A stretch of DNA of 64,000 nt from Blastopirellula sp. J2-11 (GTDB lineage: Bacteria > Planctomycetota > Planctomycetia > Pirellulales > Pirellulaceae): positions 5,332,001 through 5,396,000 of the forward strand of contig NZ_CP097384.1 in the NCBI RefSeq assembly GCF_024584705.1, given 5' to 3'. This document shows, in pieces, positions 27,719-32,352 of the stretch. Under the pieces are notes generated by a model. The model had not been told where the DNA came from. It saw only the letters and a program-made list of their open reading frames with translations, and searched no databases. Numbering within the stretch: position 1 is the first letter of the stretch; every line of letters starts with the position of its first letter. The translations under genes were made by a program, and so were the position numbers.

Positions 27719-29986
27719 GTGCGCCGACTGCTACCCGCACTCTTATTGTTCGCATGTGTCGCCCCCGTATTCGGCCAATCGGTATTGATCGAGGCCGAGA
27801 GCTTTGATCAACGCGGCGGCTGGAAACTCGACACGCAGTTCATTCGCGAAATGGGTTCACCCTATATGCTCGCGCATGGGCTCGGCACGCCGGTCGCCGA
27901 CGCGACGGCGAAGATCACCTTTCCCGAGACCGGCGAATACAAAGTCTTCGTGCGCACGAAAGACTGGGTCGCTCGTTGGAACGCTCCCGGCACGCCTGGT
28001 CGTTTTCAACTGCTGGTCAATGACCAACCGCTAAGCGAAACCTTCGGAACCCAAGGCGCCGAATGGGCTTGGCAAGCTGGCGGAACAGTCAAAATTGACG
28101 CGAAAGAAGTCGAACTGAAATTGCACGACCTGACCGGTTTTGATGGCCGCTGCGATGCGATCTTCTTTACGAAAGAAGATGCATCGCCTCCGAATGAGAG
28201 CGCCATCCTTCCGGCTTGGCGCAGTCGTTTGCTGGGCCTTAAAGAAAAACCGACCGAGAAGAGCGGGTACGATCTGGTGGTGGTCGGCGGCGGATACGCC
28301 GGAATGGGCGCCGCTTTGTCAGCGGCTCGCATGGGCTGTAAAGTCGCGTTGATTCAAGATCGGCCTGTTCTGGGCGGCAACGGTTCGAGCGAAGTTCGCG
28401 TCTGGGCGATGGGCAACATTCGTCGCGGCAAGTTCCCCCGTGTCGGTGAGATTATCGAAGAGTTCGCCGACCAGGCCAAAAAATCGCCCGGCACGTACGA
28501 AGAGTTTGGAGATGAAAAGAAAGAAGCGGTCGTTCGCGCCGAACCGAATATCGACCTCTTCCTGAATCATCACGCCTATCAAGTCGACATGGACGGCGAA
28601 AAGAAGATCGCCGGCGTCTATGCCTTTGATACGCGAACCAGCGAACAAAAACGATTTACCGGCAAGCTATATGTCGACTGCACCGGACATGGCACGATCG
28701 GATTTTTGGCCGGCGCTGACTTTGACATGGCCGAAAAAGGGCGCATGGGAATGAGCAACATGTGGGCCTGGGACGAAGCGGACAAGCCGCGTGAATTTCC
28801 GGCGACTCCTTGGGCGCTCGACCTAACGATGAAAGACTTCCCTTATCCGCGCGATCATCATGGGCAATGGTTCTGGGAAAGCGGGTTCGACAAAGATGCG
28901 CTCGGCGACGCCGAAGGAATCCGCGACTGGAATCTGCGCGCCGTCTATGGCGCGTTCAACGCGATGAAAAACAAAGATGGCGCCGACAAACATGAACCCG
29001 CGTTTCTGACTTGGGTCGCCTATGTCGGTGGTCCGCGTGAATCTCGTCTCCTGCGAGGCGACGTCGTGCTGAACCAAAACGACATCATCAGCAAGCGTGA
29101 GTTCTCAGACGGCTGCGTACCGAGCACCTGGTCGATTGATCTTCACTACCCGAAGAAGCAGTTTGCCGAAAAGTTCCCCGACAACCCGTTCATCTCGATC
29201 GCGGTCCACGATCAACGGGTCGATCGCAACTTTGGCTATCCAGTTCCTTACCGCTGTTTCTACTCACGCAACATCGACAATCTCTTCATGGCCGGCCGCT
29301 GTATCAGCGTCGATCACGAAGCCCTCGGTACTGTCCGCGTGATGAAGACTTGCGGCATGATGGGCGAAGTGGTCGGCAAAGCGGCCAGCATCTGCGCCAC
29401 GTATGACTGCACGCCGCGCGAAGTCTACGAACGTTACTGGCCCGAGATGGACACGTTGCTCAAACTGCCGGGCAAAGCCCATCGCGCTGAGTTGGACGAT
29501 GAAATTGAAATCCCCGACGACATTCCAGCGCTCGCCGGCCCCAATGGTCCGCCGACGGGACTTGATCCCAACAAGCTGGCCGGCACAGTCGTCGATGACG
29601 CCGAAGCGGAACGAATCGGCAACTGGACAGTCGGCACCGGGCTGAAGGGCTATGTCGGCTATGGCTACCTTTACACCTCCGGCAATAGCGGCGGAGCGGT
29701 TCGCTTCGCGGTCGAAGCCCCGGAAGCTGGCGTCTATGACGTTCGGTTCGCGTACCAGCCGCACGAAAACCGCGGCAAGACCGTTCCGGTGATGGTGGAA
29801 ACGAAAAGCGATCGCTTGGAAGTAAAGATCAACCAGCAAAAAGATCCGCCGATCGAAGGTGGTTTCATCTCGCTGGGCGAGTTGCAACTCGACAAGGGCG
29901 AAGTGGTCACCATCGTCGTCGCAACGGCCGGCGCCGGCGGAACCGTCCATGCCGACGCCGTTCAGCTTGTGCCTGCCAAGAAGTAA
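27719..29986 (+). CDS. exported FAD-dependent oxidoreductase with golvesin-like C-terminal domain
   Basis: A 755-residue exported flavoprotein. The GTG start has a GGAG ribosome-binding site. A Sec-type signal peptide (MRRLLPALLLFACVAPVFG) precedes a beta-rich region (about 20-165) resembling a carbohydrate-binding module. Next comes a Rossmann FAD motif, DLVVVGGGYAGMGAALSAA, near residue 184. Features of the FAD-dependent oxidoreductase superfamily follow: VLGGNGSSEVRVW, LYVDCTGHGTIGFLAG, and the FAD-closing LFMAGRCISVDHEALGTVR near residue 520. The last ~125 residues (VVDDAEAERIGNWTV to VHADAVQLVP) look like a golvesin/xanthan-lyase-type binding domain. Its stop codon abuts the start of the FMN-binding gene. 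The substrate may be a sugar-like compound; that is inference. Confidence 0.86.
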   Translation: MRRLLPALLLFACVAPVFGQSVLIEAESFDQRGGWKLDTQFIREMGSPYMLAHGLGTPVADATAKITFPETGEYKVFVRTKDWVARWNAPGTPGRFQLLVNDQPLSETFGTQGAEWAWQAGGTVKIDAKEVELKLHDLTGFDGRCDAIFFTKEDASPPNESAILPAWRSRLLGLKEKPTEKSGYDLVVVGGGYAGMGAALSAARMGCKVALIQDRPVLGGNGSSEVRVWAMGNIRRGKFPRVGEIIEEFADQAKKSPGTYEEFGDEKKEAVVRAEPNIDLFLNHHAYQVDMDGEKKIAGVYAFDTRTSEQKRFTGKLYVDCTGHGTIGFLAGADFDMAEKGRMGMSNMWAWDEADKPREFPATPWALDLTMKDFPYPRDHHGQWFWESGFDKDALGDAEGIRDWNLRAVYGAFNAMKNKDGADKHEPAFLTWVAYVGGPRESRLLRGDVVLNQNDIISKREFSDGCVPSTWSIDLHYPKKQFAEKFPDNPFISIAVHDQRVDRNFGYPVPYRCFYSRNIDNLFMAGRCISVDHEALGTVRVMKTCGMMGEVVGKAASICATYDCTPREVYERYWPEMDTLLKLPGKAHRAELDDEIEIPDDIPALAGPNGPPTGLDPNKLAGTVVDDAEAERIGNWTVGTGLKGYVGYGYLYTSGNSGGAVRFAVEAPEAGVYDVRFAYQPHENRGKTVPVMVETKSDRLEVKINQQKDPPIEGGFISLGELQLDKGEVVTIVVATAGAGGTVHADAVQLVPAKK

Positions 29987-31675
29987 ATGTCTGAGCCGCA
30001 AAAGCGACGCCCAGCTTGGCGACCTTTCGTCCACGCCGGGCGCGTGCTGATCTTAGTTGCGATCGCGCTGATCATTCACTTGGCGGCGACGCTTCATGCG
30101 CCTGCCCACGACGGGCCGGCGCCGGTACTAGACATCGCGATCGTCCAAAAGCTCTTTCCTGCCGCCGATCACGTTGTAGATGACGGCACGGTGAAAGACG
30201 CCGCCGATGCAACGCTCGGCCGCGTCCAACAAACGTCCCCCATCGGCGACAAAGCGATCGGCTTCTCAGGTCCGACCAACGTGCTGATCGGTTTTTCGCC
30301 CGACGAAAAAATCATCGGGCTGGCGATCCTTGCGAGCCGCGACACGCGCGAACATGCCCGCGAAGTGGAGCGTCACGATTCGTTCCTGCATAGTCTTGAC
30401 GGCCTGACCCGCGACGAAGCGATCCGCCAATCTGACGTCGACGCCGTCTCAGGGGCGACGCTAACCAGCCTGGCGATGATCGAAGCGGTCCAGCGCCGAC
30501 TCGGCGGCGGCCAACAATCGCTGAAGTTTCCGGACTTGCCAAAGCTGGATGTCGTTCGCAAGCTGTTTCCCGCCGCCGAATCGCTCGAACCGGACGAGTT
30601 CTATCCGTCGCTGCTGATCGTCAAAAACGGGGACGCGACACCGCTGGGTAAGATTCTGCGGACATCGCCGGCAGCCGACAATCTAGTCGGCTATCAAGGT
30701 CCGACCGAGATGCTGATAGGTTTGGACAACGAGGACATCATCATCGGCATGGCGCTAGTCCGCAGCTATGACAATGAGCCGTACGTCGACTACGTTCGCG
30801 AAGACGACTACTTTTTGAATTTACTGAATGGACAATCGATTTACGCTTTGCCCGAAACCGATCTTCGTGAACTGCAAATCGAAGGAGTCTCCGGCGCGAC
30901 CATGACCAGCCAAACGGCGGCGACCGGCGCATATTACGCGGCGGATGAAATGCTGCAGTCGTACTTGGCGGTGGGCAAAGCGGATGAGAAAGACCAGATT
31001 CGTCTGCACGAGCGCGACTACAAAACGATCGCCGTCGTGGTCATCGGCGTGCTGCTGGCGTTTAGTCCTTGGCGCGGCAATCCGTGGGCGCGGATTCCGT
31101 TTCAGATCGTCGTCTTCGTTTATCTCGGCTTCGCCAACGGCGACTTTGTATCCCAAGCGTTGTTGGTCGGTTGGGCGCAAAACGGCGTCCCCTGGAAGTC
31201 AGCCCTCGGGCTGGTGCTGTTAGTCGGCGCGGCGGTGGCGCTGCCGATCTTTACCCGCACCAACGTTTATTGCAGTCATCTTTGTCCGCACGGCGTCGTG
31301 CAGCAATGGACCAAGCGGCGGATTCGATGGCAGTGGAAACCGTCGAAACGGCTCCTCCCCTGGCTCAAAGCGATCCCCAGCGTATTGCTAGCGTGGGTCG
31401 TATTGGTCGCGGCGGCTCGCTGGTCGTTTAGCCTGGTCGATATCGAGCCGTTTGACGCCTATGTATGGCATATCGCCGGTTGGGGAACCATCGGCATTGC
31501 GATCGTCGGACTGGTCGCGTCGCTCTTCACGCCGATGGCCTATTGCCGCTTTGGTTGCCCGACTGGCGCGCTGCTCGACTACGTTCGCTACAATGGGAAG
31601 AGCGAATTCTGGACGCGGCGCGATTGGGTCGCCGTAGGCCTGTTGGCGCTGGGCGCGGTTGCGCTGTTGCTCTAA
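29987..31675 (+). CDS. NosR/RnfG-like membrane protein with two FMN-binding domains and a CxxxCP iron-sulfur module
   Basis: A 562-residue membrane redox protein. An N-terminal helix (about 17-38) is followed by two FMN-binding domains facing the periplasm. Each has a covalent-flavin motif, DAVSGATLTS near residue 154 and EGVSGATMTS near residue 302, where ApbE-type enzymes attach FMN to the threonine. About five further helices and two cysteine motifs resembling NapH/NosR C-termini follow: CSHLCPHG near residue 428 and CRFGCPTG near residue 519. It starts directly after the exported FAD enzyme, which suggests an electron path between quinone or iron-sulfur centres and that enzyme. No apbE gene is visible in the window. 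Confidence 0.9.
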   Translation: MSEPQKRRPAWRPFVHAGRVLILVAIALIIHLAATLHAPAHDGPAPVLDIAIVQKLFPAADHVVDDGTVKDAADATLGRVQQTSPIGDKAIGFSGPTNVLIGFSPDEKIIGLAILASRDTREHAREVERHDSFLHSLDGLTRDEAIRQSDVDAVSGATLTSLAMIEAVQRRLGGGQQSLKFPDLPKLDVVRKLFPAAESLEPDEFYPSLLIVKNGDATPLGKILRTSPAADNLVGYQGPTEMLIGLDNEDIIIGMALVRSYDNEPYVDYVREDDYFLNLLNGQSIYALPETDLRELQIEGVSGATMTSQTAATGAYYAADEMLQSYLAVGKADEKDQIRLHERDYKTIAVVVIGVLLAFSPWRGNPWARIPFQIVVFVYLGFANGDFVSQALLVGWAQNGVPWKSALGLVLLVGAAVALPIFTRTNVYCSHLCPHGVVQQWTKRRIRWQWKPSKRLLPWLKAIPSVLLAWVVLVAAARWSFSLVDIEPFDAYVWHIAGWGTIGIAIVGLVASLFTPMAYCRFGCPTGALLDYVRYNGKSEFWTRRDWVAVGLLALGAVALLL

Positions 31676-31699
31676 ACCAAGCGAACTCAGGAGGGTTAC

Positions 31700-31996
31700 G
31701 TGGCGCGCAAAGGAGGCGATTGGCCGTTGCATGCGATCTATCTCGGCGTGATCTTGCTATTGGCCGGCGTCACGCTGAAGTCGGTCGAGTCATTCACACT
31801 GACCCCCACGGCGACGCGACTGTTATCACGACACGCTGGACCTTCGACAGAAACTACCGAAGGGGCGCTGCAAAGCATGATTGTCGAGAACACCGACCAG
31901 CGCCACATGATTCGCCCTCGCAGTTGGATCGGCTGGGGCTTGTTGTCAGCAGGCGCGGTTCTGGTAGTGCATGGGATCATTTTGAAAGTGAAATGA
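31700..31996 (+). CDS. small two-helix membrane protein
   Basis: A 98-residue protein with two hydrophobic helices (about residues 10-24 and 75-95) and a hydrophilic loop with many Thr/Ser/Arg. The start is GTG with an excellent AGGAGG ribosome-binding site, 24 bp after the FMN-binding gene. I do not recognise a family. The spacing suggests it is a small accessory subunit or assembly factor of the FAD/FMN redox pair. Confidence 0.75.
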   Translation: MARKGGDWPLHAIYLGVILLLAGVTLKSVESFTLTPTATRLLSRHAGPSTETTEGALQSMIVENTDQRHMIRPRSWIGWGLLSAGAVLVVHGIILKVK

Positions 31997-32166
31997 TCGC
32001 AGCACGCATTTTCGCCATCGGGTCTTGCGCAATTTGCGGATTGAGCGGATTGCTCGCCGTTCGTTTACTTGGTTTTTGCGTTGCAAGGGATCCCTCTCGA
32101 CAATTTCTCTACGAAAATCACGAATATCCAGAGAGAACAACAAGAGAAACGCACCAGGGAGAACCC

Positions 32167-32352
32167 ATGAATCCACTTTCACTTCTGCTGATTATTGTCG
32201 GCGGCGTCATTCAGATGCTCGGCGTCATCTTTTGTATCGTCAACGCAGGCGATGCCGGAATCAACATGCCGCTATTGATCGGCGTGCTCGTCGTCGGATC
32301 GATGTTTGAGACCGGCGCGGTCTTCTGGCACATCTTGCAGAAGCGCATTTGA
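32167..32352 (+). CDS. small membrane protein, 61 residues
   Basis: A 61-residue hydrophobic protein with two helices (about residues 4-26 and 33-57) and a short charged end (ILQKRI). A GGGAGA ribosome-binding site sits ahead of the ATG at 32167. The frame is open back to an ATG at 31993 that overlaps the previous stop as ATGA and would give a 119-residue protein. The A-rich region 32100-32160 argues for the shorter form. No family recognised. Confidence 0.7.
   Translation: MNPLSLLLIIVGGVIQMLGVIFCIVNAGDAGINMPLLIGVLVVGSMFETGAVFWHILQKRI

Follow-up and report, generated by a model that had tools for sequence, protein, structure and literature searches.

The window analysed here, that is, the whole stretch of 64,000 nucleotides, comes from a 6.43-Mb genome in a single contig (G000), and the nearest named relative found for this host genome is Blastopirellula marina DSM 3645. 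Between positions 27719 and 32352, the forward strand of the window carries four genes, a span that had been given exactly in a preliminary description of this DNA. The first gene (27719..29986) starts with GTG and encodes a putative exported FAD-dependent oxidoreductase of 755 aa, with a signal-like N-terminal end, a beta-rich N-terminal domain, a PF12831 core (residues ~184-569) and a Golvesin_C domain whose best stretch spans residues 625-751 (Pfam). Its TAA stop codon is followed directly, with zero bases between, by the ATG of the second gene (29987..31675), which encodes a predicted membrane electron-transfer flavoprotein of 562 aa. This protein comprises an N-terminal hydrophobic segment, two FMN_bind domains (Pfam) encoded at 30260..30496 (G000:C1:5362260-5362496) and at 30689..30931 (G000:C1:5362689-5362931), the latter being the one kept in single-domain relatives, and a C-terminal membrane part with two CX3CP motifs. 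Two open frames follow on the same strand, encoding small proteins of 98 aa (31700..31996) and 61 aa (32167..32352) with two hydrophobic segments each. Both small proteins had been proposed as further components of the system. Among the loci searched, matches to them were found only in the window and at L024 and L088, which correspond to Blastopirellula marina and to one genome of the window's own genus. Due to this restriction they were rejected as members of a conserved system, and the 98-aa and 61-aa two-TM proteins, detected in Blastopirellula only, probably stand outside it.

The FAD enzyme belongs to PF12831 by gathering score (232 bits, cutoff 27; Pfam). PF12831 matches were found at 20 places of its own genome; 18 of them exceed the cutoff, including two that correspond to the FAD gene itself, and many are confined to the nucleotide-binding stretch. 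Sugar-binding-like domains had been suggested at both ends of the enzyme. When scanned alone, its C-terminal part reached 68.3 bits for Golvesin_C (cutoff 31.6), whereas the N-terminal part gave a sub-threshold 22.8 bits against the same cutoff; the suggestion thus holds at the C-terminal end and is weak at the other. The Golvesin_C domain also shows a weak match to CBM_35. Export of the enzyme, which had likewise been suggested, agrees with the signal-peptide-like start that was recognized by eye in those members of its clade (see below) with an intact N-terminal end. The predicted structure of the enzyme is too poor (mean pLDDT 47) to support an argument from its active site. In genome G460, the enzyme of this clade lies inside a 1288-aa frame (L168:7454-11320) with a long N-terminal stretch of no assigned family; a signal-like stretch is found internally, just ahead of the enzyme, and the true start may be there.

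The membrane protein matches FMN_bind over two stretches (69.7 bits, cutoff 22) and Fer4_5 (PF12801) also over two stretches (44.2 bits, cutoff 22; Pfam). A simple hydropathy cut yields segments at residues 20-38, 401-419, 456-474 and 493-522. The sequence SGAT occurs at residues 155 and 302, CSHLCP at 429 and CRFGCP at 520. Taking into account that the flavinylation motif is [S/T]GA[S/T] (PMC11334425), the two putative covalent-FMN sites, one in each FMN_bind domain, and the two CxxxCP motifs are found as the preliminary description claimed. Its Fe-S character we infer from Fer4_5, as no ferredoxin-type cysteine motif was seen in the protein (Pfam). For the CX3CP motifs of RdhC, two readings stand, formation of disulphides or binding of a cluster (PMC5928378). 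In the structure model of the membrane protein (mean pLDDT 63), RnfG/NqrC rank first among PDB entries, weakly (E 0.003-0.02), and no PDB fold match reached E 0.001.

Conservation of these motifs was followed in an alignment of 45 membrane proteins, four of them from the outermost group of the membrane-protein tree, a tree in which 13 of 42 inner branches are unresolved. Both cysteines of both CX3CP motifs, four in total, are kept in all 45 rows. The FMN site near the membrane fits [S/T]GA[S/T] in 42 of the 45 rows and is degenerate in the other three. Twenty-seven rows have the outer FMN domain, whose site fits in 21 of them and is degenerate in six; a single FMN domain is found in 17 of the 45 rows, and SI075 is a truncated contig. 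In four rows (L092, L094, L096 and L030, from G024, G137, G194 and SI075, respectively) Ala replaces Pro in the first CX3CP. G024, G137 and G194 form one genus-level group, in which the FAD gene is unlinked.

A scan with the membrane protein as the sole query recovered eight loci. In six of them, the FAD gene lies directly upstream, encoding proteins 65-95% identical; of the remaining two, L030 begins inside the membrane gene, and no FAD gene was found in the 8 kb upstream available at L031. The analysis was extended to 534 genomes, 294 from Planctomycetota and 240 from the phylum of L028 (Opitutae, a Verrucomicrobiota record); the centre genomes G000 and G294 are part of the sample because they carry the pair. 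Within Planctomycetota, the FAD protein was detected in 32 genomes (E <= 1e-100) and the membrane-protein profile in 24 (E <= 1e-40). In the second phylum, the membrane protein was detected in 14 genomes, and 50 gave FAD-profile matches at E <= 1e-120. In a tree, a single FAD clade (36 rows, support 100/99) stands apart from the other PF12831 groups, and a second, quicker tree with more members recovers this clade with 41 rows (SH-aLRT 100). When FAD genes are restricted to the clade, 22 genomes of Planctomycetota encode both proteins, none the FAD clade only, two the membrane protein only and 270 neither; the corresponding figures for the L028 phylum are 11, two, three and 224. In the combined sample, 33 genomes encode both, two the FAD clade only, five the membrane protein only and 494 neither (Fisher p 7e-45, counts and p being uncorrected for phylogeny or kinship). 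Each of the 33 genomes with both proteins has one FAD gene within the single FAD clade. Hence the pair is conserved beyond the window, occurring in 33 of 534 sampled genomes and adjacent in six of the first eight loci; a lack of conservation elsewhere, which would have refuted the preliminary description, is not what we observe.

Assignment to the clade combined trees and scores. Among the 32 Planctomycetota genomes with a FAD match, 22 fall in the clade and nine outside it by tree, and G079 was placed outside by score (387 bits). Of the 50 in the L028 phylum, 13 belong to the clade by tree, nine others have rows outside it, and the remaining 28 were excluded on score and coverage (<=581 bits, with the match extending only to about position 584). 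Per-genome scoring covered the best three to five candidates, and split genes may miss the cut-offs in either phylum. Five Verrucomicrobiota genomes do not, as might seem, have the membrane protein only: their FAD match is split into two sub-cut-off pieces, and all five fall in the clade. The own-genome loci L005, L008 and L011 have no FAD-profile match and are absent from the trees, and L004, L006 and L007, too distant, were left out of the second FAD tree. PF12831 relatives outside the clade come mostly from genomes with no detected membrane partner, the exceptions being the own-genome paralogues and a second gene of G515.

Co-occurrence of the two genes is not a by-product of their linkage, since they are non-adjacent in 15 of the 33 genomes: 10 of the first 28 tallied (the other 18 being adjacent) and five further Verrucomicrobiota genomes with the FAD and membrane genes on different contigs. 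Distances between FAD proteins and between membrane proteins are also correlated. The partial correlation given rpoB is 0.71 (n=29), and it takes the value of 0.69 both in the 10 unlinked genomes and in the 19 others (p 0.0001 for each set, 9,999 permutations). This test excluded G294, with a fragment of rpoB only, G277 and the five Verrucomicrobiota genomes whose FAD match is split. Some groupings are repeated in both trees (G105 and G216, from Planctomycetota, with G402, from the second phylum; G517 with G366); resolution is lacking at many other forks of the membrane-protein tree. Identity to the window proteins across the test genomes, excluding the two same-family genomes G121 and G205, ranges from 49 to 72% for the FAD protein, from 48 to 75% for RpoB and from 27 to 50% for the membrane protein. 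As judged from these ranges, the FAD enzyme has a rate of change close to that of RpoB and much lower than that of its membrane partner. It might be argued that both genes are chance neighbours, that is, unrelated periplasmic redox genes sharing an operon in some PVC lineages only. Their separation in 15 of 33 genomes and the lack of a shared substrate clue in their neighbourhood would suit this explanation; however, genes that lie apart and still co-occur and co-diverge make it highly improbable.

Seven genomes depart from the pairing. The two with the FAD clade only, G320 and G307, are sisters. In each of them a large frame (1420-1536 aa; L249:3849-8459 and L250:3390-7652) combines FMN_bind with Fer4_5 but escaped the profile search at the cut-off used. 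About 1000 aa precede the FMN_bind and Fer4_5 module in these frames, whose start codons are uncertain; no Pfam match was found in this extension at E 0.001, and by eye it consists of a membrane part and a spermidine-synthase-like part. The five with the membrane protein only are G036 (69% complete), G051, G368, G379 and G485. No FAD match was found in G036 and G051 at E <= 1e-20. The G051 frame (L116:7751-9580) has FMN_bind and Fer4_5 fused to a nitroreductase domain, and a second nitroreductase-family gene follows it. G368, G379 and G485 give the weakest membrane-protein matches (148-164 bits) and, together with G051, make up the outermost group of the membrane-protein tree.

The membrane-only genomes bear on the alternative that the FMN/CX3CP protein acts as a general hub for many periplasmic enzymes, with the FAD enzyme as one client. 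That 5 of the 38 genomes with the membrane protein do without the FAD clade, one of them with a fused nitroreductase domain, points in this direction, as does the description of the membrane class as modular (PMC8238504). Nevertheless, membrane-protein scores are lowest in precisely these five genomes (<=290 bits, as opposed to >=303 elsewhere), and of the several PF12831 groups it is a single FAD clade with which the membrane protein closely co-occurs and co-diverges, so that we consider a general hub quite improbable. Covalent-FMN membrane proteins with CX3CP motifs are known to link quinol or other donors with periplasmic enzymes, delivering electrons to reductases or taking them from oxidases (PMC8238504, PMC5928378). 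Because of this role of the class, and with the FAD enzyme as the conserved partner, we read the two genes as a dedicated relay. On the genomic evidence, we are confident that the two large genes would form a dedicated extracytoplasmic electron-transfer pair.

Flavin attachment offers a further link. ApbE is the enzyme that attaches the flavin. It was found fused with the membrane gene, or adjoining that gene or the pair, in 16 of 44 loci searched (the window was outside that run), a count to be taken as a lower bound since some loci are short contigs. In four genomes (G105, G216, G402 and G534) ApbE is fused, in 11 cases it adjoins the membrane gene and in one (L026) it lies upstream of the adjacent pair; all 16 exceed the Pfam cutoff. 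None of 10 loci with a stand-alone FAD gene had ApbE nearby. ApbE therefore goes with the membrane gene, as expected if it flavinylates the membrane protein. Among the neighbours scanned (Pfam), no ApbE gene accompanies the pair of the window; its genome has three elsewhere, one of which (at 1505833) is close to another FMN_bind gene (at 1502864). At L026 (4190-5632), the ApbE frame has a C-terminal NqrM match and directly precedes the FAD gene.

Most of the remaining neighbours vary between genomes, and many of them look by eye like housekeeping genes. Such varied neighbours suit a general role better than a single polysaccharide locus. Membership of a polysaccharide locus was rejected, no neighbour family being widely common. 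After the two genes themselves, the commonest neighbour cluster occurs in 8 of 44 stretches (43 loci and the window), and its listed example is a sulfatase; sulfatases are very abundant in these bacteria. Single loci show other associations, from which we deduce no substrate: a 3-keto-disaccharide hydrolase gene upstream of the FAD gene at L028, a GntP permease near the pair in one genome (L166) and a BNR_4 gene that overlaps the end of the FAD gene in G320 and G307. In Verrucomicrobiota, the membrane gene has an aminotransferase gene as a direct or close neighbour at L158, L159 (by eye) and L160; a subtilase gene of 1806 aa then follows at L158, and one of similar size at L159.

It is very probable that the pair connects the respiratory chain, by electron transfer, with the outer side of the inner membrane. 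We infer the direct transfer of electrons, its direction, the quinone end and the kind of substrate. The exported FAD enzyme would perform a two-electron redox reaction on a periplasmic substrate, which its Golvesin_C domain suggests might be carbohydrate-like; a glycan-like substrate is proposed tentatively. Electrons would be exchanged between the FAD enzyme and the covalently bound FMN groups of the membrane protein, and would travel through the membrane part, which has the two CX3CP motifs, into or out of the quinone pool. The FMN would be attached by ApbE, whose gene is linked or fused in many relatives and which would act in trans in the window's genome. The exchange of electrons between both partners, as the preliminary description had it, is well supported on genomic grounds, by co-occurrence with and without adjacency, co-divergence and ApbE association, and the small proteins drop out of it.

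Regarding direction, we lean slightly towards oxidative use, in which electrons would flow from the substrate to FAD, to one FMN and then the other, to a membrane cysteine or Fe-S site and finally to quinone. This order is favoured because the enzyme is not of the fumarate reductase type and the membrane class includes an example linked to an oxidase. In the reverse case, the membrane protein would take electrons from quinol or the cytoplasm and feed a FAD enzyme that reduces a periplasmic compound, after the models of NosR-NosZ, PceC-PceA and flavin-linked fumarate-type reductases. Characterized members of the membrane class do serve reductases (NosR, PceC), and the same class has also been linked to an alcohol oxidase (PMC8238504, PMC5928378). 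Solved structures matching the FAD core include flavocytochrome c fumarate reductases, over ~40-50 Rossmann residues only, and similar matches of ~40-50 residues come from many other flavoenzymes. PF12831 matches the core broadly, whereas FAD_binding_2 spans only residues 185-221 (Pfam), so that, by its domain matches, the enzyme is not of the fumarate reductase type. A full-length match to the fumarate reductase-like (flavocytochrome c) family TIGR01813 was not obtained (23.5 bits, cutoff 285.45). Blastopirellula marina, the nearest named relative found, is an aerobe, which also argues against a reductive role. Reductive use is thus somewhat unlikely. Going beyond the oxidative reading, the FAD clade might represent an undescribed periplasmic dehydrogenase, conserved in two phyla to about the degree of RpoB, that oxidizes a common component of envelope or algal glycans and delivers electrons to the quinone pool along a flavinylated conduit of its own. 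PVC bacteria would then have a respiratory entry point peculiar to them that dispenses with cytochrome c; this we advance as a speculation, unlikely as it stands.

The pairing provides one flavinylated electron-transfer system with a defined, conserved enzyme partner, open to purification and screening, and hints that periplasmic redox chemistry in Planctomycetota and Verrucomicrobiota may run by way of flavins. Since the two genes often lie apart, and apart from ApbE as well, surveys that start from ApbE gene clusters could miss this pair. In the open-access literature, we recognized no description of the FAD partner or of this exact pair, and the main text of Meheust et al. 2021 (PMC8238504) does not mention PF12831, Planctomycetes or Verrucomicrobia. 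The earlier statement that no described system has this set therefore stands for the exact set, within open-access text, but not for the membrane module, which is of a described kind (PMC8238504, PMC5928378).

Its domains place the membrane protein with the NapH-like class (Meheust et al., 2021; PMC8238504); it is also similar to RdhC/PceC, to whose plan it adds an FMN domain. It shares with NapH-like flavinylated proteins the PF12801 membrane domain, an N-terminal FMN_bind domain with [S/T]GA[S/T], presumably on the extracytosolic side as in that class, and the pairing with a periplasmic oxidoreductase; ApbE-linked gene clusters, another trait of the class, were seen at 16 of 44 loci of relatives and not among the neighbours scanned in the window. 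It differs in having two FMN domains (one in 17 of 45 rows) and a PF12831 enzyme as partner, in genes often unlinked from partner and ApbE, and in the fusion to ApbE in four genomes. The likeness to RdhC/PceC (Buttet et al., 2018; PMC5928378) extends to an FMN domain that follows the first helix and lies outside the membrane, and to a membrane part that contains two CX3CP motifs and lacks C-terminal ferredoxin sites. Six helices are predicted for RdhC, as opposed to the four to five segments obtained here with a simple hydropathy cut; the window protein has a second FMN domain and, as far as gene clusters tell, its conserved neighbour is the PF12831 enzyme instead of a reductive dehalogenase. 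NosR also combines FMN_bind with a CX3CP membrane module, and the NCBIfam NosR model aligns to residues 409-530 (26.2 bits, cutoff 1000); unlike NosR, the window protein lacks C-terminal 4Fe-4S sites and a NosZ partner. On the side of the FAD enzyme, the closest parallel is a domain family shared with the PF12831/Golvesin_C enzymes of PVC bacteria.
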